Shown piece after piece: positions 5,623 through 17,746 of a DNA stretch of 64,000 nucleotides. Every line of letters begins with the position of its first letter. Position 1 is the stretch's first letter. The notes beneath the pieces are model-generated. The model did not search any database, was not told where the DNA came from, and saw only the letters and a list, made by a program, of their open reading frames with translations. Source of the DNA: Acidimicrobiaceae bacterium. Its GTDB lineage: Bacteria; Actinomycetota; Acidimicrobiia; Acidimicrobiales; RAAP-2. The stretch spans positions 124,001-188,000 of the forward strand of contig CANGPS010000001.1 in assembly GCA_947456245.1 (NCBI GenBank). Reading direction: 5' to 3'. A program made the position numbers and the translations under genes.

Positions 5623-7067
5623 ACGTCTTGCTCATCACCCTCGACCAGCTCCGCGCCGACATGGTCGAGCACCCGCTGGTGGCCACGCCCGCCCTTGATC
5701 GGCTCCGTGCTCGTGGCGTGCACTTCGCCCGTCACTTCTCCCAGGCCGCTCCGTGCTCGCCAGGTAGAGCGTCGCTCTACACCGGTATGTACCAGGCCAA
5801 CCACCGGGTCGTCGGCAATGGGACGCCGCTCGACCACCGGCACGACAACGTGGCCCTGCTCGCCCGCCGGGCGGGGATGACCCCGACGCTCTTCGGGTAC
5901 ACCGACCAGGGGATCGACCCGCGGGTGGCCGACGGCCCCGACGACGAGCGCCTCGAGTACTACGCCGGCATCCTGCCGGGGTTCGCCTCTGGCCTGTTCA
6001 TGCCAGAGAGCCAGGACCCCTGGCTCGAATGGCTCGCCGGGCTCGGCCATGGGAGGTTCCCGGACTACATCGCCGCGCTCGCCGCCGAGCCCGATCGACC
6101 GGTCGCCCACTCGCTGAGCACCTTCGTCACCGACGCCTTCCTGTCTTGGCACGCCACGCAGGAGCAGCCGTGGTTCGCCCACCTCAGCCACCTGCGCCCC
6201 CACCCGCCCTACGCGGCGGCAGGGGAGTACTCCACGATGTACGACCCAGCGGATGTCGGCGACGGCCTCGCCCCGGCGCCCGACGGCGAGCGCCACCACC
6301 TCCACGACCTCACCATGGGACTCGACGTCTGCGCGGCGCCCGACACGGAAGAAGGTCGTCGGCACATGCGGGCGCAGTACTTCGGGATGGTGTCCGAGGT
6401 CGACGCGCAGGTCGGCCGCGTGCTCGACCAGCTCGAGGAGCTCGGGCAGATCGACGAGACCCTGATCATCCTGACGTCCGACCACGGCGAGCAGCTCGGA
6501 GACCATGGCCTCAAGGAGAAGCTCGGCTACTTCCCGGAGAGCTACGCCATCGCGTGCATCATCAGCGACCCGAGGCACCCTGCCGCCCACGGCACTCGGG
6601 TCGAGCGCTTCACCGAGAACGTCGACCTCCTGCCGACGATCGCCGTGAGCCTCGACGTCGAGATCCCCTCACAGGTCGACGGGCGCCCGCTGCAGCCGTT
6701 CCTCGAGGGTGCGGTCCCGGAGCAGTGGCGCACCGCCGCCCACTGGGAGTGGGACTGGCGGGCGATGGTCCTCGGGTTCCTCGCGCCCGGCTGGCCTGTC
6801 GACCGGCGGCTCGAGCAGATGAACCTGGCGGTCCTCCACGACGACGAGGGGGCCTACGTCCACTTCGGTGACGGCAGCTGGCTCCTGTTCGACCTGGCAG
6901 CAGACCCGACCTGGCGCACCACGACGCAGGACCCTGCTCTCGTGCTGCGCTACGCGCAGGCGATGCTCGACTGGCGCCAGGAGCATCTCGACCGCACGCT
7001 GACCGACCTGCTGCTCGAGCCGGGGCGGCCCGGTCGCTGGCCTGACATCGCCAGCGCTCCTCGCTAG
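5619..7067 (+). CDS. Sulfatase (formylglycine-dependent, alkaline phosphatase superfamily)
   Basis: A 482-residue hydrolase. The N-terminal LLITLDQLRADM supplies metal-binding aspartates; CSPGRASLYTG (Cys46) is the sulfatase signature whose cysteine is converted to formylglycine, and TSDHGEQLGDHG supplies the second metal ligands. The canonical serine after proline is glycine here (CSPGR rather than CSPSR), an accepted variant. No signal peptide is visible, so it would act on imported or intracellular sulfate esters. The GTG start overlaps the esterase stop. Its stop overlaps the convergent TetR gene by four bases. A formylglycine-generating enzyme is not in the window. Confidence 0.9.
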   Translation: MNVLLITLDQLRADMVEHPLVATPALDRLRARGVHFARHFSQAAPCSPGRASLYTGMYQANHRVVGNGTPLDHRHDNVALLARRAGMTPTLFGYTDQGIDPRVADGPDDERLEYYAGILPGFASGLFMPESQDPWLEWLAGLGHGRFPDYIAALAAEPDRPVAHSLSTFVTDAFLSWHATQEQPWFAHLSHLRPHPPYAAAGEYSTMYDPADVGDGLAPAPDGERHHLHDLTMGLDVCAAPDTEEGRRHMRAQYFGMVSEVDAQVGRVLDQLEELGQIDETLIILTSDHGEQLGDHGLKEKLGYFPESYAIACIISDPRHPAAHGTRVERFTENVDLLPTIAVSLDVEIPSQVDGRPLQPFLEGAVPEQWRTAAHWEWDWRAMVLGFLAPGWPVDRRLEQMNLAVLHDDEGAYVHFGDGSWLLFDLAADPTWRTTTQDPALVLRYAQAMLDWRQEHLDRTLTDLLLEPGRPGRWPDIASAPR

Positions 7068-7672
7068 GGCCGAGCGCGCAGTCCTGAGACCAGCAGGTCG
7101 ACGAGATCGTTGTAGCCGGCCGCAGGATCTCCGGTGAAGCCGATGCCGAACATCTCGAGCGAGATCCACCCATGGCAGGCCGCCCAGATCCTCTGGGCGA
7201 TCTCCCGATGGTCTCCCGGCGAGAACAGGCCGACATCGACCATGCGATCCACGGCCCGGACGAGCTGGTCGAAGGCCCCCTCGGCGACGAGCTGGCTCTC
7301 GATGCTCGGCACGAAGGAGGGGACCGCCCGCAGGAGCATCAGTCGGTAGGTGGCAGGCGTGGTGAGCGCGAGACGTCGGTAGATGGCGAGACCGGTGCGG
7401 AGCGCCTGCTCCGGGTCGGCGATGCGATGGACCGCCTCGAGCTCTGAGTCGAGGACCGCGAAGCCCTGACGGAAGAGGGCGTCGATGACGCCGGCCTTGC
7501 TCTGGAAGTGGTTGTAGACCCCCATGGGAGCGACGCCGGCCTCGGTGGCGATGCGGCGGACCGACAGGGCATCTGGGCCCTCCTGCTCGAGGAGCATGGA
7601 CGCGGCACCGAGGATCGCGCTGGCCACGTCGGTCGAGGGGGTCCGGAGGCGAGCGCTCACAGGTGCGACCAT
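7064..7672 (-). CDS. TetR-family transcriptional regulator
   Basis: A 202-residue regulator. Residues about 15-65 form the TetR helix-turn-helix (SVRRIATEAGVAPMGVYNHF), followed by a ligand-binding domain with no obvious family beyond that. It is divergent from a 14-helix DHA2 efflux pump, with a near-perfect palindrome between the two starts (7683-7704), the classic arrangement of a self-repressing regulator that releases the pump gene when a substrate binds. The inducer is unknown. Upstream bases hold no strong ribosome site. Confidence 0.92.
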   Translation of the reverse strand: MVAPVSARLRTPSTDVASAILGAASMLLEQEGPDALSVRRIATEAGVAPMGVYNHFQSKAGVIDALFRQGFAVLDSELEAVHRIADPEQALRTGLAIYRRLALTTPATYRLMLLRAVPSFVPSIESQLVAEGAFDQLVRAVDRMVDVGLFSPGDHREIAQRIWAACHGWISLEMFGIGFTGDPAAGYNDLVDLLVSGLRARP

Positions 7673-7682
7673 CTAAAGAACA

Positions 7683-7704
7683 TCGTGCTATAACTATAGC
7701 ACGA
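7683..7704. promoter_or_regulatory. 22-bp palindromic operator between tetR and the MFS pump
   Basis: Two perfect 10-base arms (TCGTGCTATA and its reverse complement) flank a central AC. The A/T-rich core TATAACTATA also holds -10-like hexamers on both strands, so a bound dimer would block both promoters. It is the only such A/T-rich island in this part of the window. Assigning it to the adjacent TetR protein is inference from position. Confidence 0.8.
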
Positions 7705-7725
7705 CGCTCTACAAATGAGGGAACC

Positions 7726-9276
7726 ATGAACGCTGCCTCCGCCCATCACGACCGCCGCTGGCTGATCCTGCCCGTGCTCTGCCTGTCGGTCTTCCTCGTC
7801 GTGGTGGACAACACCATCGTCAACGTGGCCCTGCCGAGCCTCAGCCGTGACCTCGGCGCGTCCATCACCGGCCTGCAGTGGATCGTGGATGCCTACAGCC
7901 TCGCCTTCGCCGGGCTCTTGCTCGCCGGAGGCGGGGTCGGGGACCGACTCGGCCGCAAGGGGGTGATGCAGGTCGGTCTGGTGTTCTTCGGGGTCTTCTC
8001 CGTCTTCGCCGCCCTGAGCACCACGACGGGCCAGCTCATTTCAGCCCGTGCGCTGATGGGGGTGGCGGCGGCCTTCGTGTTCCCGGCCACCCTTGCCATC
8101 TTGACCTCGGTGTTCACCGATCCCTCGGAACGGCAGAAGGCGCTGGGCGTCTGGGGGGCCACCTCGGGCTTGGCGGTGGCCTTCGGTCCGATCACCGGTG
8201 GAGCGCTGCTCGAGCACTTCTGGTTCGGTTCGATCTTCCTGGTCAACGTCCCGCTCGTGCTCATCACCCTGGTCCTCGGGCAGATCCTGATCCCCAAGAT
8301 CCTCGCTCCCGAGCGACGACGCTTCGACACGCCGGGGGTCCTCGTGTCGACGGTCGGGGTCACGCTCCTGGTGCTGGCCATCATCCAGGGTCCGCAGTGG
8401 GGCTGGACCTCCGTGGGGACACTCGGGTGCTTCGCGGCCTCGCTGTTGGTCCTGGCCGCCTTTGTCATCCTTGAGCTCCGCACCGCTGAGCCGCTGCTCG
8501 ACGTGCGCGTCTTCGCCATCCCCAAGTTCTCGGCCGGAGCGATGGCGATCGCCGTCTCGTTCTTCTGCCTCTTCGGGTTCATCTTCCTCATCACCCAGTA
8601 CTTCCAGTTCGTGAAGGGTTACTCGACCCTCTCGGCGGGCGTGCACACGCTGCCCTTCGCCATCGTCTCGGCCGTCTTCACCCCGATCGGCGCCGTCCTG
8701 GCGCTCAAGGTCGGCATCAAGCTGGTGTCGGGGATCGGCCTGCTGGCCATGGCGCTCGGCCTCGTGATCGTCGGCCTGACCGGGACGCCCGATGCCTCGT
8801 ACTTCGGTTGGATCCTCATCTCGATGGTCTTCTTGGCCCTCGGCCTGTCCTTCAACACCGCACCCGCCACCGAGGCCGTGATGAGCGCCCTGACCCCCGA
8901 GCAGATGGGCGCCGGAGCGGCGGTCAACAACACCACGAGAGAGCTCGGCGGCACGCTTGGCGTGGCCGTGATCGGCTCCGTCTTCGCCTCGAGCTACGGG
9001 CCGCGCATCGCCAGCGCCTTCGCCGGCCTCCCCATTCCGAGAGGGGCGAGGAGCGCTGCGCAGGACTCGATCGCCGCCGCCCTCGAGGTGGTCGGTCACG
9101 CCCCGGCCGCCGCTCGGCCCGCAGTCGAGGCGTCCGTCTTCTCGGCGTTCTCCTCGGGTCTCGAGGTCGCGTGCTTCGTGGCGGCCGGCGTCGCCGTCGC
9201 GGGAGCACTGGTCTCGTTCCGCTTCCTGCCGGGGCGCGCCGAGCGCCCGGAGTCGGCCACGCTGACCCTCCACTGA
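7726..9276 (+). CDS. MFS efflux transporter, DHA2 (EmrB/QacA) family
   Basis: A 516-residue, 14-helix drug:proton antiporter type membrane protein. WLILPVLCLSVFLVVVDNTIVNVALP is the first helix with the DHA2 family's D-x-T-I-V-N motif; GDRLGRKG is MFS motif A after helix 2. The ATG at 7726 follows a GAGGGA ribosome site. It should export a hydrophobic or cationic compound in exchange for protons. The flanking TetR and palindrome indicate substrate-induced expression. Confidence 0.9.
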   Translation: MNAASAHHDRRWLILPVLCLSVFLVVVDNTIVNVALPSLSRDLGASITGLQWIVDAYSLAFAGLLLAGGGVGDRLGRKGVMQVGLVFFGVFSVFAALSTTTGQLISARALMGVAAAFVFPATLAILTSVFTDPSERQKALGVWGATSGLAVAFGPITGGALLEHFWFGSIFLVNVPLVLITLVLGQILIPKILAPERRRFDTPGVLVSTVGVTLLVLAIIQGPQWGWTSVGTLGCFAASLLVLAAFVILELRTAEPLLDVRVFAIPKFSAGAMAIAVSFFCLFGFIFLITQYFQFVKGYSTLSAGVHTLPFAIVSAVFTPIGAVLALKVGIKLVSGIGLLAMALGLVIVGLTGTPDASYFGWILISMVFLALGLSFNTAPATEAVMSALTPEQMGAGAAVNNTTRELGGTLGVAVIGSVFASSYGPRIASAFAGLPIPRGARSAAQDSIAAALEVVGHAPAAARPAVEASVFSAFSSGLEVACFVAAGVAVAGALVSFRFLPGRAERPESATLTLH

Positions 9277-12143: not shown

Positions 12144-13346
12144 GTGGGAGACCTGAGCCCTGAGGCAGACGCCTGGCCTGAGGACGCGGCGTCCATCGGG
12201 ACCGGCCTGCCGCTCGAGGGCGTCCGCGTCCTCGATCTCTCTCGCGTGCTGGCGGGTCCGCTGGCGGCCATGGTCCTCGGGGACCTCGGTGCGGACATCA
12301 TCAAGGTCGAGCAGCCGTCCGGCGATCCCGTCCGACAGATGAGCCCGCCGTCGATCGGCGACACCTCGACGTACTACGTCTCGGTGAACCGCAACCGGCG
12401 CAGCGTCGTGGCTGATCTCACCAGCCCCGAGGGACGGCGTCTGGTGGCCCGGCTGGCGGCCTCCGCAGACGCTGTGGTCGAGAACTTCCTGCCCTCGCAG
12501 GCAGAGGCCCTAGGCATCGCCGCGCTGCGCGACGCCCTTCCCGACCTCGTGTGGGTGACCGTGTCGCCGGCTGCGCTCGGTGGACCGTTGGGCGACCAGC
12601 CGGCCTTCGACCTCCTCGCCCAGGCGCGCAGCGGGCTGATGGGCGTGTCGGGGACGCCGGAGTCGGGACCGATGAAGACCGGTGCGCCGGTGGCCGACGT
12701 CGTCACCGGGCTCTACGCGGCGATCGGCCTGCTCTCGGGCCTGCTCGAGCAGAAGCTGCGGCCGGGCTCGAGGGGTCGCCGGATCGAGGCTCCGCTGCTC
12801 GAGTCGGCGATCACCGTCCTGATCAACCAGACCGCAGGGTTCCTCGGCGCCGGGGCGGAACCGCGGTTGCTCGGCAACGACCATCCAAGCATCGTCCCCT
12901 ACGCGCCATATCGGGCTGCAGATCGTGACGTCCTGCTGGCGGTCGGGACCGAACCGCAGTGGGCTCGACTCGTCGAGGCGATCGGCGCTCCTTCGCTCGC
13001 CACCGACGTCCGCTTCGCCCGCAATGCCGACCGCGTGGAGCATCGTGATGAGCTGCGGGTCGAGCTCGAGGCGGTACTCGGCGCTCGGACCTGCAGCGAG
13101 TGGATCGAGGTGCTCGGCGCCGCCGGGGTGCCGTGCGCACCGGTGAACGACGTGCCGGCGGCACTGCATCAGGACCAGGTGGCTTCCGGAGACCTGCTGG
13201 CCGAGGTCGTCCTCGAGGACGGGTCGATGACGGGCATGGTGCTGACGCCGCTCAGGATCGACGGTCGCAGGCCGGGGGTGCGTCGACGACCACCAGGTCT
13301 CGGCGAGCACACCGCCGAGATCGTGGCGGGGATGGAGCGAGGATGA
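12144..13346 (+). CDS. CaiB/BaiF (class III) CoA-transferase
   Basis: A 400-residue protein starting at GTG 12144. The family hallmark LEGVRVLDLSRVLAGPLAAMVLGDLGADIIKVEQP is spread over residues 26-62, including the aspartate region that forms the acyl-enzyme anhydride intermediate further on (residues ~170-180, PAFDLLAQA). Members move CoA between carboxylic acids such as formyl-, carnitinyl- or succinyl-CoA. The donor and acceptor cannot be told. It follows the amino-acid importer at five bases and overlaps a 158-residue unknown gene by four bases. Confidence 0.9.
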   Translation: MGDLSPEADAWPEDAASIGTGLPLEGVRVLDLSRVLAGPLAAMVLGDLGADIIKVEQPSGDPVRQMSPPSIGDTSTYYVSVNRNRRSVVADLTSPEGRRLVARLAASADAVVENFLPSQAEALGIAALRDALPDLVWVTVSPAALGGPLGDQPAFDLLAQARSGLMGVSGTPESGPMKTGAPVADVVTGLYAAIGLLSGLLEQKLRPGSRGRRIEAPLLESAITVLINQTAGFLGAGAEPRLLGNDHPSIVPYAPYRAADRDVLLAVGTEPQWARLVEAIGAPSLATDVRFARNADRVEHRDELRVELEAVLGARTCSEWIEVLGAAGVPCAPVNDVPAALHQDQVASGDLLAEVVLEDGSMTGMVLTPLRIDGRRPGVRRRPPGLGEHTAEIVAGMERG

Positions 13347-13819
13347 TGGCGAGGGCGACGAAGGAGATCATCGAGATCGACGAGGATGCCGCGGCGGTGC
13401 TCGAGCGGCACCTCGGCCGGGCGGGTGCGACGGGTGGCTGGGTCAACCTGACGCCGGGCGTCCCGTCCGACGTGGTGGCCACACCGCCGCGTTCGCTGTT
13501 CTCGTGGCTGGTCGGCTCCGCCGGGCCGGCAGCCCCCCTCGCCACCTGGATGCCGGCGGCGACGTCGTCGGGTCGACCGGGCCAGCTCGGCATCCTGCAC
13601 GCACGCGGTCGGCTGACCAGAGAGGGGATCGCCGGACTCGCCAGCATCCCTGCATCCTGGCGCTGCCTGGGCGACAACGCTCGGAAGGGTCTGATCTTCG
13701 AGGTGTCGAGCGCCAGCGATGCCGACGTGGCCGAGGCGATGCTGGCGGTGGTCGAGGAGCTCACCACGGTGCCGACCACCGGTCGATACCTGGCCGAGGT
13801 GTTCACCCGTCCGACCTGA
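13343..13819 (+). CDS. Protein of unknown function, coupled to CoA-transferase
   Basis: A 158-residue soluble protein that I do not recognise. Its ATG (with a second ATG directly after) overlaps the CoA-transferase stop by four bases, so it is probably made with it. It has an acidic N-terminal helix (EIIEIDEDAAAVLERHL), a proline/alanine-rich middle and a C-terminal alpha-helical segment. No cysteine pair, metal site or nucleotide motif stands out; one cysteine occurs in SWRCLGD. It ends directly against the convergent nitroreductase gene with no spacer. Confidence 0.7.
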   Translation: MMARATKEIIEIDEDAAAVLERHLGRAGATGGWVNLTPGVPSDVVATPPRSLFSWLVGSAGPAAPLATWMPAATSSGRPGQLGILHARGRLTREGIAGLASIPASWRCLGDNARKGLIFEVSSASDADVAEAMLAVVEELTTVPTTGRYLAEVFTRPT

Positions 13820-14509
13820 TCAGGCTGGGGCGAGCCCCTCGCCGTCCATCCGATCGATGGTGGTGAACTGCTCGACGGGAGCTCGGCGCAGCCGGCTGAT
13901 CTGCTCGGTGGGCTCTCCGAGTGCGACGACCGCCGCCACCGCCGTGTCCGGTGGGGCGTCGATCAGGGAGAGGACCTGCGCCTCTGCTCGCACCGCCATG
14001 GTGGTCATCACGCCACCGAGGCCCCGCTGTCGTGCCCCGAGCAGGATGCTCCAGACGAAGGGGTAGATCGATGCACCGCCGGCGAGGCCGACCCGGTCGA
14101 GATCCCGATCCACGGTGGCGAGGCAGGTGAGGTCGGCGAGGATGACCAGGAGTGCCGGTACCTCATCGAGGTGCTCGGCGAACCCAGGGTTGGCTGCTCC
14201 GAGGCTCGCGAAGTCGGCCGCTCGGGCGATGGCGGCGGCCTCGTCGTCCGGGGCGTTGGTCGAGGCGAAGGGCGTCATTCCCTCGGTGGTCATGGCGAGG
14301 TACTCGTACCAGCCGGGGAGGTAGGCGTCCCTCAGCGCCCGCCGGGTCACGGGGTCCTTGACCACCACCACCCTCCAGCCCTGCCTGTTCCCCCCGCTCG
14401 GGGCGAAGCGAGCATCGTCGAGGATCGCGTACAGGGTCGCGTCATCGACGGGCCGGTCGGTGAAGGTTCGGGTGGCCGGCGTAGAGGTCAGGGCATCGGA
14501 GAGCTCCAT
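13820..14509 (-). CDS. Nitroreductase-family FMN oxidoreductase
   Basis: A 229-residue flavoprotein. The N-terminal TRTFTDRPVDDATLYAIL and RFAPSGGNRQGWRVVVV segments carry the conserved arginine and SxxNxQ FMN contacts, and GLGGVMTT lies in the C-terminal FMN loop. Family members reduce nitro, quinone or flavin-like substrates with NAD(P)H. The ATG lacks a ribosome site but has TAGGGT six bases upstream, so the mRNA may be leaderless. It is divergent from the EthD-like operon. Confidence 0.88.
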   Translation of the reverse strand: MELSDALTSTPATRTFTDRPVDDATLYAILDDARFAPSGGNRQGWRVVVVKDPVTRRALRDAYLPGWYEYLAMTTEGMTPFASTNAPDDEAAAIARAADFASLGAANPGFAEHLDEVPALLVILADLTCLATVDRDLDRVGLAGGASIYPFVWSILLGARQRGLGGVMTTMAVRAEAQVLSLIDAPPDTAVAAVVALGEPTEQISRLRRAPVEQFTTIDRMDGEGLAPA

Positions 14510-14515
14510 GTCGGG

Positions 14516-14521
14516 ACCCTA
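14516..14521 (-). promoter_or_regulatory. -10 hexamer of a probable leaderless promoter (nitroreductase)
   Basis: TAGGGT on the minus strand, six bases before the ATG at 14509, with no ribosome site between. No convincing -35 is visible. Confidence 0.6.
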
Positions 14522-14582
14522 CCTGCACCCATGGGGCTCGCGTGTGGGATGCTGACGCCGGAGAAATCGGGGGGAGACGACG

Positions 14583-15314
14583 GTGGAGAAGCTCCAGTAC
14601 GTGGTGTGGCTGCCTGAGGGGACCTCCCCGCGCGCGGTCCGAGAGACCTTCGTCGACGAGATCGCGCCGAGGTTGCTCGAGACCGATCTGCTGGGCCTGA
14701 CCATGGACCTCGACGATGATCTCGCCGATGTGGCCGCGCCGGTCCCGGCGCCCGACGGCGAGCACACGCCGGCGGCCGTGATCTCGGTCTGGGTCGACTG
14801 CTACGACCGTCGGGGACCGATCGAGGACGTGCTGCGATCGGTGGCGGTCCGGCTCGATGGCTACCAGGTCCTCGAGTCGCTCTACGCCGACTACGGCCGG
14901 AGCCCGTGGGCCGAGCCTCGTGACTGGCCCGATGGCGAGCGCTCGCCCGGCATCTTGACGGTCGCCCGCTTCGAGCAGCTCGAGGGCACCGACTTCGAGG
15001 AGTGGCTGGCGTTCTGGCATGGCCACCAGTCGCCGATGTCCGAGGCGATCCAACCCCGCTGCCGCTACGTGCGCAACCTCGTCGTCCGCGGCCTCGAGCC
15101 CGGGCTCCCTGCCTGGCGGGGGATCGTCGAGGAGGCGTGGCCGAGCAAGGAGCACGTCGAGGACCCGATGCTCTTCTACTGTGCCGATGGGGACCCGGAC
15201 GTGATGAGCGCCAACGTCACCACGATGCTCGAGCACGTGACCAAGCTGATGGATCTCGGGACGATGAGGAGCCAGACGATGAGCGAGTGGATCATGAAGA
15301 CGGTGGGTGCCTGA
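14583..15314 (+). CDS. EthD-like dimeric alpha/beta-barrel protein
   Basis: A 243-residue protein starting at GTG 14583 after GGGGGAGA. It reads as two ferredoxin-like halves: LQYVVWLPEG at the start, and GILTVARFEQLEGTDFEEWLAFWHGHQSPMSEAIQPRCRYVRN in the second half, where the W-x-x-x-H pattern resembles EthD/antibiotic-monooxygenase barrels. Such proteins bind or isomerise small hydrophobic molecules. It is first in a three-gene operon: its stop shares one base with the start of the NTF2-like gene. Exact reaction unknown. Confidence 0.7.
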   Translation: MEKLQYVVWLPEGTSPRAVRETFVDEIAPRLLETDLLGLTMDLDDDLADVAAPVPAPDGEHTPAAVISVWVDCYDRRGPIEDVLRSVAVRLDGYQVLESLYADYGRSPWAEPRDWPDGERSPGILTVARFEQLEGTDFEEWLAFWHGHQSPMSEAIQPRCRYVRNLVVRGLEPGLPAWRGIVEEAWPSKEHVEDPMLFYCADGDPDVMSANVTTMLEHVTKLMDLGTMRSQTMSEWIMKTVGA

Positions 15315-15775
15315 TGTCGGCCTTCACCGAGTCCTCACTTCGTGCGATGCACGACAACTACCTCGAGGTGGCGAACCGCTGCTCGGCCGTCCAGGACTGG
15401 CGAGAGTGGGCCGACCTGTTCACCGAGGAGGCCGTCTACGTCGAGCACTGCTTCGGCCGGTTCCAAGGCCCTGACGAGATCTATGGCTGGATCCAGCCTC
15501 TGATGAACCAGTGGCCCAACTCCGAGATGACGGCATTCCCCCATGACTGGTGCGTCTTCGACGTCGAGCGTGGCTGGTCGATCTGCCAGGTGGAGAACGT
15601 CATGCGCGATCCCGGCGACGGCAGCCTCCACCAGGCGGCCAACATCACGATCCTGCACTACGCCGAGGACGGCCGGATCACCTACGAAGAGGACGCCTAC
15701 AACCCCATGAACTTCGCCCCGATGGTGAGCGGCTGGATCGAGACGGTCGAGCGCTTCGAGGGGCCGCGCTCATGA
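15314..15775 (+). CDS. SnoaL/NTF2-like protein
   Basis: A 153-residue cone-shaped-barrel protein. The opening helix (LRAMHDNYLEVANRCSAVQDWREWADLF) and TEEAVYVEH strand match the NTF2-like superfamily that includes SnoaL cyclases, ketosteroid isomerases and many lyases. An acidic/aromatic pocket (EEAVYVEH, HDWCVF) could be catalytic. It overlaps both neighbours (one base upstream, four bases downstream) and so is co-translated with the EthD-like and thioredoxin-like proteins. The substrate is likely a small hydrophobic ring compound, by analogy only. Confidence 0.78.
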   Translation: MSAFTESSLRAMHDNYLEVANRCSAVQDWREWADLFTEEAVYVEHCFGRFQGPDEIYGWIQPLMNQWPNSEMTAFPHDWCVFDVERGWSICQVENVMRDPGDGSLHQAANITILHYAEDGRITYEEDAYNPMNFAPMVSGWIETVERFEGPRS

Positions 15776-16818
15776 GCGCCGTCACCGTGATCCTCGATGA
15801 TGTGATCGAGGTCGAGGGATCCACCTCGACGGGCCGCTTCCTCATCCCCGCATCCGACCTCGAGGCCGCCACCGGATGGGTCCGCAAGCCCGAGGGCCTC
15901 TGCCGTGGCGACGTGTGCGTCCCGGTCCGCGATGCCGGCGCCCTCGAGGTCGACGGCTCGATCGATCTCGTCGGACTGGCGGCCGCCCTCGGCCGGCGCA
16001 GCGTGGTCGACCTCGACGCGCGGATCGCTGCCATCTCTCTCGACGCGGCCGTGCGACATGCGGCCCTCGACGGCCTCGTCGCCCCGGAGGTCACGCTGCC
16101 GGACCTCGATGGGAACCCGTTCGCGGTCAGCTCGCTCAGAGGGCACAAGGTCCTCCTCGTGGCCTTCTCCTCGTGGTGCGGGTGCCGCTACGACCTGCCC
16201 GGCTGGCAGGCCCTCGCCGAGGAGCTCGCCGATGACGGGCTACGCATCGTGACGGTGGCGCTCGACGACGACCCGGAGGTGGTCCGACCGTTCACGGAGG
16301 GGATCACCATCCCCGTCCTGATCGATCGCCAGCACGTCCTGAGCGAGGTGTTCGCGGTGTCGAACGTGCCGACGGCGGTGTGGATCGATGAGGAGGGGCG
16401 CATTGCTCGCCCCAACGGCCTCGTCTTCGGCACGGACACCTTCGCCGAGTTCACCGGCGTCGACTCCGGCCCGACGCTGGCCGCCATCCGACGCTGGGTG
16501 CGCGACGGCGAGGTGCCGATGGATCCCGCTCAGGCGGCCGGTGCCGTTGCGGACCTGACCGACGACGAGGTCGATGCCCGGCTGTACTTCCGGGTAGGGG
16601 CAGAGGCCCGGCGACAGGGGAACGACGCTGCGGCCGAGCGCAACCTGCGTCGAGCGGGAGAGCTCGCGCCCATGGACTTCTCGGTGCGTCGGGCGGCGAT
16701 GCCGCTACTCGGGGAGGATCCGTTCGGCCAGGACTTCCTCGACCTCTTCGCCGAGTGGCAGAGCGAAGGTGCTCCGTACCACGGGCTTCCCGCGACCTGG
16801 GACGCGCAGGACACCTGA
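15772..16818 (+). CDS. Thioredoxin-fold redoxin with CxC motif and helical C-terminus
   Basis: A 348-residue protein. Residues about 104-250 form a TlpA/AhpC-type thioredoxin fold (VTLPDLDGNPFAVSSLRG, then VAFSSWCGCRYDLPGW). The usual CxxC is compressed to Cys136-Gly-Cys138. A second cysteine pair, Cys44 and Cys49 (GLCRGDVCV), lies in the N-terminal part and could form a relay. Residues ~270-340 are helical and TPR-like. There is no signal peptide, so it is cytoplasmic. Its ATG overlaps the NTF2-like stop. A thiol redox or peroxidase role is inferred; the substrate is unknown. Confidence 0.75.
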   Translation: MSAVTVILDDVIEVEGSTSTGRFLIPASDLEAATGWVRKPEGLCRGDVCVPVRDAGALEVDGSIDLVGLAAALGRRSVVDLDARIAAISLDAAVRHAALDGLVAPEVTLPDLDGNPFAVSSLRGHKVLLVAFSSWCGCRYDLPGWQALAEELADDGLRIVTVALDDDPEVVRPFTEGITIPVLIDRQHVLSEVFAVSNVPTAVWIDEEGRIARPNGLVFGTDTFAEFTGVDSGPTLAAIRRWVRDGEVPMDPAQAAGAVADLTDDEVDARLYFRVGAEARRQGNDAAAERNLRRAGELAPMDFSVRRAAMPLLGEDPFGQDFLDLFAEWQSEGAPYHGLPATWDAQDT

Positions 16819-16858
16819 GCCCGGTGGCCCGTGGGCCTTCGGGGTGCGCTGAGGGTCG

Positions 16859-17746
16859 CTACGCGTCTCTGCGGCTGAGCAGCGTGGCGCCTGCCGCGAG
16901 GACGAGGGCGGCATAGGCGACGATCACGGCCGTGGCCGGCCATGCGTCGAGCAGCACGCCGGCGAAGTCGGTCTGCTTCGACCCGACGGTCTCCATCGCC
17001 ACCCCGAGGTTCGAGGGGAGATAGGGCTGGATCGGCTCGCGGATGCTCGAGGGGAGCAGCTGGATCAGGATCGGGATCACGAGCAGGAACACCACGTAGA
17101 GCGAGATGGTGGCGGTGGTGCTGCGGAGCAGGAAGCCGAGTCCGACGGCCAAGACCCCCATGAGGGTCAGGTAGAGGCCGGTGCGCAGGAGCGCCATCGG
17201 CACGCCCGATGCTGTGATGGACAGGACGGGGATCACCCCGGCCTTGATCTGCGTCATCAGCGTGGCCCCGGCAGGGAGCTGCTTCCCCCCGGAGGCGAGC
17301 AGGACCGCCTGGCTGACGAAGAACGAGGCGAAGGCCGTGAGCTCGGTGACGATGAGCAGCACGACGCCGGTCACGATCGCCTTCGCGGCCACCACGGTGG
17401 TCCGGCGGGGGAGTGCGGCGAAGGTCGTGCGGATCGACCCGTTGGCGTACTCAGAGGTGACGACGAGGGCACCGAGCACGCCGACGACGATCTGACTGAT
17501 GAACGAGCCCGCCTGAGAGATGCGGACGGGGTCGAACTGGGCGCGGTCGAGCGGCGACGAGTGCTTCCAGTTGCTGGCGATCAGCGCGGAGAACAGCGCG
17601 GCGAAGCCGAGGCCGGCCACGACGATGATGGTCAGCGAGATCCAGGTGGACCGCACCGAGCGGAGCTTCGCCCACTCGGAACGGATCGCCTCTGTGAGTC
17701 CGGCGCGACCGTGGTCGGTCCCAGGGTCGAGGGAGAGTGCGGTCAT
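16859..17746 (-). CDS. ABC-2 type transporter permease
   Basis: A 295-residue membrane protein with six predicted helices (first about residues 34-56, last near 265-288). Its short cytoplasmic N-terminus, long first loop and NGSIRTTF segment are typical of ABC-2/ABC-2_3 permeases of drug or lipid exporters. It is co-translated with the ATPase gene upstream (four-base overlap, 17743-17746). Substrate unknown. It ends convergently 40 bases from the thioredoxin-like gene. Confidence 0.88.
   Translation of the reverse strand: MTALSLDPGTDHGRAGLTEAIRSEWAKLRSVRSTWISLTIIVVAGLGFAALFSALIASNWKHSSPLDRAQFDPVRISQAGSFISQIVVGVLGALVVTSEYANGSIRTTFAALPRRTTVVAAKAIVTGVVLLIVTELTAFASFFVSQAVLLASGGKQLPAGATLMTQIKAGVIPVLSITASGVPMALLRTGLYLTLMGVLAVGLGFLLRSTTATISLYVVFLLVIPILIQLLPSSIREPIQPYLPSNLGVAMETVGSKQTDFAGVLLDAWPATAVIVAYAALVLAAGATLLSRRDA

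Follow-up and report, generated by a model that had tools for sequence, protein, structure and literature searches.

The window analysed here (i.e., the entire stretch of DNA, 64,000 nucleotides long) carries, at positions 14583-16818, three tightly coupled plus strand genes that were called as open reading frames (ORFs) encoding an EthD-like protein, a SnoaL-like protein, and a CxC redoxin. We are fairly confident that this set is best explained as a small-molecule EthD-SnoaL module, often located near a nitroreductase and an SDR, that shares its neighbourhood with a general redoxin; as part of the same overall explanation, and with the same confidence, we consider that the redoxin is linked to the EthD-SnoaL pair by inheritance within one bacterial family and not by necessity. 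The redoxin itself probably acts as a general helper in redox reactions, as opposed to being a set component of a novel pathway. The parts of the set are known, and their arrangement is lineage-specific and absent from descriptions in the literature searched, which included no paper naming both EthD and SnoaL. The first-pass annotation had known of no described system with this combination, which agrees, for the arrangement, with the literature searched; it had not recognized that the redoxin is the Cys form of a selenoprotein family already on record.

The first gene (14583-15314) starts with GTG, with GGGGGAGA upstream, and encodes P0001, an EthD-like tandem ferredoxin-fold protein of 243 aa that was recognized from its ORF, from EthD matches within its family, and from model and fold matches. 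The second gene (15314-15775) encodes P0002, a SnoaL-like (NTF2-fold) protein of 153 aa, and the third (15772-16818) encodes P0003, a redoxin of 348 aa. The P0001 and P0002 genes overlap by 1 base (TGATG at 15312-15316) and the P0002 and P0003 genes by 4 bases (ATGA at 15772-15775); because the junctions overlap, translational coupling of the three genes is likely, and the genes are probably co-transcribed as well as translationally coupled. Promoter and terminator consensus scans of positions 14300-17000 found neither. A chance assembly of three ORFs was also considered and was ruled out by the overlapping junctions and by conservation. The initial description of this region as overlapping EthD-like, NTF2-like, and redoxin genes is thus confirmed by ORF calls, Pfam, family matches, and fold. 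On the minus strand, a divergent nitroreductase, P0004 (13820-14509; PF00881, 3.5e-18), was identified by synteny as a recurring neighbour of EthD-SnoaL. A 161-aa frame on the plus strand (13334-13819), located between a CoA-transferase III gene and the nitroreductase gene, is conserved in related loci and has no Pfam match.

P0001 itself matched no Pfam family at E ≤ 1, so PF07110 (EthD) is not matched by its own sequence; 22 of 34 aligned members of its family did match PF07110 (best 5.4e-6), a count of matches some of which may lie below the gathering score. The predicted structure of P0001 (pLDDT 95.4) consists of two ferredoxin-like repeats in tandem within one chain and has, with these repeats, the dimeric alpha-beta barrel fold of EthD. 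The top full-length solved folds for this model were sulfur oxygenase reductase (2cb2) and an anthrone oxidase-like protein (5f9p), both with Z 13.3; the monooxygenase PenE (9kdp) matched the full-length model with Z 12.0, and the C-terminal half of the model matched CTB10 (9iku), which we take to be an EthD-type protein, with Z 8.9 and an rmsd of 2.3 over 109 residues. The literature searched contained no paper naming both CTB10 and EthD, and a single-sequence PDB search with P0001 returned nothing useful. The anthrone oxidase-like and PenE folds of the model fit a cofactor-free oxidation but do not demonstrate one. In-frame TGA codons in the EthD homologues of two genomes (G029 and G082) were considered as possible Sec codons, and each proved to be the terminal stop.

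P0002 matched the Pfam family SnoaL_2 (PF12680) with 32.1 bits (cut-off 27; 1.9e-07); a single-sequence PDB search with P0002 found no solved relative. Its alignment with 25 relatives showed 24 invariant columns, and the polar residues H45, D83, E125, E126, and D127 are kept in all or nearly all of the 25 SnoaL rows. The EthD and SnoaL folds also have binding roles, and the EthD neighbours vary widely outside this bacterial family; both observations would be consistent with EthD-like and SnoaL-like proteins that are ligand binders (carriers or sensors) instead of enzymes, in an operon representing a stress or detoxification set. We consider this very unlikely, as the conserved SnoaL polar residues and the 17 invariant positions over the 34 rows of the EthD family alignment fit an active site, albeit without proving one.

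Among 100 relative genomes searched, 30 carried a strong EthD match (two genomes with weak matches, G060 and G084, were left out), and in 15 of these 30, distributed over four genera (g1, g2, g6, and g10), SnoaL is located directly 3' of EthD; EthD-SnoaL is hence a real recurring pair. A redoxin gene directly follows the pair in nine of the 15 genomes (g1 and g10; one cut by a contig end), with EthD, SnoaL, and redoxin genes that overlap or nearly overlap. In g2, the redoxin is found on the same strand, after glyoxalase-like and PNPOx-like genes downstream of the pair, and in g11, EthD and the redoxin are about 2.2 kb apart in a genome in which no SnoaL match was found. A dedicated three-protein pathway, in which the redoxin would give thiols to, or regenerate, the EthD-SnoaL reaction, could account for these co-directional, overlapping genes, which are consecutive in nine genomes from two genera and close to each other in a third genus. 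This pathway appears unlikely, however, as the other five of the 15 genomes with an adjacent pair have no listed redoxin family member, one of these five, the congener G004, having the nitroreductase, EthD, SnoaL, and ABC genes in place while the redoxin is absent from the same locus, and as other genera have EthD and redoxin far apart or on separate contigs. Some coupling is nevertheless possible, since two genera have the redoxin immediately 3' of the pair and two others have it no more than about 2.2 kb from EthD.

Redoxin loci provided further evidence against a dedicated pathway. Among the best 80 of 326 such loci, 71 yielded no EthD homologue, although one located further away could be missed where, as in several loci, the sequence stops less than 8 kb from the redoxin; EthD and SnoaL were found upstream of the redoxin in eight loci and EthD alone in one, all nine encoding Cys forms. 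Locus and genome counts are not independent, as the samples of 80 loci and of 100 relatives share members and are related. The question of whether the three genes stay together in other genomes, on which the first-pass annotation had staked its reading, therefore has a divided answer: the EthD-SnoaL adjacency recurs, but the redoxin is often apart from it, and a redoxin that acts as a fixed partner of the pair is not upheld. Similarly, of the cofactor-free oxidation or ring chemistry needing thiols that had been proposed for the set, the oxidation remains compatible with the EthD folds (5f9p and PenE), whereas the redoxin as a fixed thiol partner is not supported.

No constant neighbour of the redoxin family was found across loci; the gene immediately upstream differs between clades. 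In 10 loci (L155, L156, L157, L166, L170, L174, L176, L180, L185, and L190), an acyl-CoA dehydrogenase-like gene (approximately 598 aa; named by eye) ends 12 to 22 bases before a Sec redoxin on the same strand. In two genera, an encapsulated-ferritin gene and then an encapsulin gene are located 3' of the redoxin on the same strand (L095:5415-7771 and L096 at about 6084-8390); in L095, these matched EncFtn-like (5.5e-39) and Linocin_M18 (2.7e-77), and homologues are present in L096. An encapsulated ferritin and encapsulin setting is tied to iron and peroxide handling, and the proximity of a CGC redoxin to an iron store of the encapsulin type may hint at function.

P0003 matched the Pfam families AhpC-TSA (50.2 bits, cut-off 26; 3e-13) and Redoxin (46.1 bits, cut-off 26.6), and the closest folds to its thioredoxin domain are ResA-like thiol-disulfide reductases (ResA 2h1b, E 2.0e-10). 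These matches bear on a second form of coupling, in which the EthD-like protein would act without a cofactor as an oxidase or oxygenase, leaving the redoxin to clear the resulting peroxide or oxidised thiols. While the AhpC-TSA and Redoxin matches, the anthrone oxidase-like and PenE folds of the EthD-like protein, and the encapsulated-ferritin and encapsulin genes 3' of the redoxin in two genera are consistent with such a role, we consider it decidedly unlikely, given that the nearest folds of the redoxin are thiol-disulfide reductases, that five of 15 genomes keep EthD-SnoaL without it, and that neither the EthD-like protein nor the redoxin has a known oxidase or peroxidase activity.

The best NCBIfam match of P0003 was NF041054, "ResA-like WAxxUGC motif-containing protein" (E 3.2e-65), with a score of 220.7 bits that falls under the curated cut-off of 300 bits; the homology is nearly full-length and includes the N-terminal part (P0003 residues 25-315 on profile positions 8-322 of 354), and all 29 aligned P0003 relatives also matched this family. 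The active site CGC (residues 136-138; 16177-16185) aligns with UGC in Sec-encoding relatives, and C44 and C49, which form an N-terminal C-x4-C (codons at 15901-15918), are invariant in the 29 aligned relatives, as are C136, G137, and C138 when Sec is entered as C. The first active-site codon of P0003 is TGC (16177-16179) and not the Sec codon TGA. By its sequence, P0003 is a Cys-containing twin of the known selenoprotein family WAxxUGC. A role of P0003 as a selenoprotein in the window's own genome was rejected on the basis of this TGC codon and of a genome with no SelB above the cut-off and no strong tRNA-Sec. No hydrophobic N-terminal signal was evident, by eye, in the P0003 translation.

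In the GOS survey, a "Prx-like (UGC-containing)" selenoprotein is described with 46 Sec and 855 Cys forms and as commoner in non-marine samples (PMC2398784), and a family that contains UGC, named Prx-like or TlpA, also figures in two reviews (PMC9312934, PMC13188914); as judged from fold and motif, this family is probably NF041054. No paper was found when the literature was searched for "WAxxUGC". The nearest named relatives are uncultured Actinomycetota, several of them labelled Acidimicrobiaceae, with isolate names that refer to lakes, bogs, and permafrost soils, so that an origin of the window from this group is very likely. This mostly Acidimicrobial redoxin family also occurs on contigs (L138, L145, L154, L164, and L182) that bear the labels Bifidobacterium breve, Acidobacteria, Euryarchaeota, and Deltaproteobacteria; mislabelling or misbinning may be the reason.

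The Sec and Cys states of the redoxin vary in step with the Sec machinery. A long match to the redoxin family was found in 32 of the 100 relative genomes, 14 with TGA and 18 with Cys, and one additional genome (G032) carries a redoxin fragment without the active site. Screening for Sec machinery covered 37 genomes, i.e., these 32, G032, and four genomes without a redoxin (G003, G004, G010, and G040). SelB above the cut-off was found in 14 of the 37 and tRNA-Sec with at least 64 bits also in 14; a TGA redoxin, SelB, and a strong tRNA-Sec occurred in exactly the same 14 genomes, with no exception. None of the 18 genomes with a CGC redoxin had SelB above the cut-off, a single absence of Sec machinery being weak evidence because most genomes are incomplete. 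One genome with a Cys redoxin (G082) had no SelB above the cut-off and a tRNA match that barely exceeded its own cut-off (47.5 bits versus 47).

Of the best 80 of 326 redoxin relatives, which come from named contigs, 47 have TGA as the first codon of the active site, and the remaining 33 have a Cys codon there. A six-pair stem with a five-base loop can fold 3' of the UGA in Sec genes; all six pairs are possible in 41 of 47 Sec genes, as compared to 18 of 33 Cys genes. The loop Gly is encoded by GGG in 30 of 46 Sec genes, against a background of 15% in these genes, and in 3 of 30 Cys genes, against a background of 25%; the loop counts leave out rows with another residue at this position (1 Sec and 3 Cys), and both stem and loop counts are inflated by relatedness of the genes. 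This hairpin, with loop codons that are under strong bias in Sec genes and less constrained in Cys genes, resembles a bacterial SECIS and a relic of it. The window's redoxin gene carries, at the corresponding position (16194-16210, plus strand), the hairpin CCTGCC-CGGCT-GGCAGG, in which the stem is kept and the loop is CGGCT, and which is possibly a relic of a SECIS-like element. Folding-energy z-scores 3' of the active site did not separate Sec and Cys genes (mean z -0.38 and -0.45, respectively), and the SECIS assignment rests on codon bias because only the synonymous-codon and loop counts separate the two groups.

A tree of 84 redoxins requires five changes between Sec and Cys states (five to six in bootstrap trees; shuffled mean about 27); this tree is unrooted and gives no direction of change. 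A change from Sec to Cys seems likelier, since distant members of the family mostly encode Sec. In a quick tree, one starred group comprised the 15 Cys rows surrounding the window, whereas in a more careful tree, for which two long rows (L029 and L022) were omitted beforehand, the smallest starred sets given for the window reach no further than four rows, so that the deeper grouping of the window's Cys rows is unsure.

The wider EthD neighbourhood points to small-molecule metabolism. The nitroreductase adjoins EthD in g1 and g10 stretches and is located approximately 6 to 10 kb away in the fetched g6 and g11 stretches, consistent with the earlier suggestion that the divergent FMN nitroreductase P0004 may share the pathway, and an SDR either adjoins EthD or is found no more than about 4 kb from it in g2, g6, and g11 stretches. 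Across the phylum, 17 of 396 genomes showed an EthD match, 11 of these in a distant family (f69); a scan of selected neighbours in five fetched stretches from this family identified, in three stretches, an enoyl-CoA hydratase gene about 80 to 540 bases from EthD and on its strand and, in two, a LysR gene beside EthD.

From the observed gene calls, families, Sec and Cys states, Sec machinery, and neighbourhoods, we infer a chemistry, substrate, electron path, and location for the preferred reading, i.e., an EthD-SnoaL module with a general redoxin nearby. The EthD-like protein, a tandem alpha-beta barrel, and the SnoaL-like protein would successively process a single hydrophobic ring or enol substrate, and folds and neighbours suggest that neither protein would contribute a metal or flavin. 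In related genera, the neighbourhood also includes the divergent nitroreductase and an SDR, together with a glyoxalase-like and a PNPOx-type protein. The redoxin would be a stand-alone, general thiol-disulfide or peroxide reductase, presumably cytosolic, in which the first active-site Cys, in place of Sec, would attack a disulfide or oxidised substrate and the second would resolve the first; the N-terminal C-x4-C (C44/C49) may pass electrons to the active site. A bolder version, in which the UGC/CGC redoxin with its C-x4-C is an intramolecular relay enzyme with a Cys form that was recruited in one family as the EthD-SnoaL reductant, yielding a thiol-coupled oxygenase without metal or flavin, is in our view highly improbable.

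With this locus, a natural comparison series of Sec and Cys forms within one protein family, in which the Sec machinery is present or absent in step, gains a member. Together with this series, the G004 locus, which keeps EthD-SnoaL without the redoxin, makes the pathway idea directly testable. The case also warns against inferring a pathway from a single co-directional gene set. If EthD-SnoaL does carry out a cofactor-free oxidation, uncultured Actinomycetota of lakes and bogs would possess a small-molecule route that has not been described.

With regard to known systems, P0001 shares its fold with EthD (PF07110) and CTB10, with 5f9p, and with PenE (9kdp), at an identity to solved structures of 12% or less, and differs from EthD domain proteins by its two repeats per chain and by an own sequence that falls below PF07110 detection; P0002 passes the family cut-off for SnoaL-like proteins (PF12680). 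P0003 has the thioredoxin fold in common with the thiol-disulfide oxidoreductases ResA, TlpA, and DsbE, but its active site is CxC (C136-G137-C138) where theirs is CxxC, and it has extra N- and C-terminal parts and no evident N-terminal hydrophobic signal. Its likeness to NF041054 is closer, with the same CxC spacing and the same N-terminal Cys pair, which Sec and Cys members share; P0003 differs from this family by Cys in place of Sec, by FSSW in place of WAxx, and by its sub-cut-off score.
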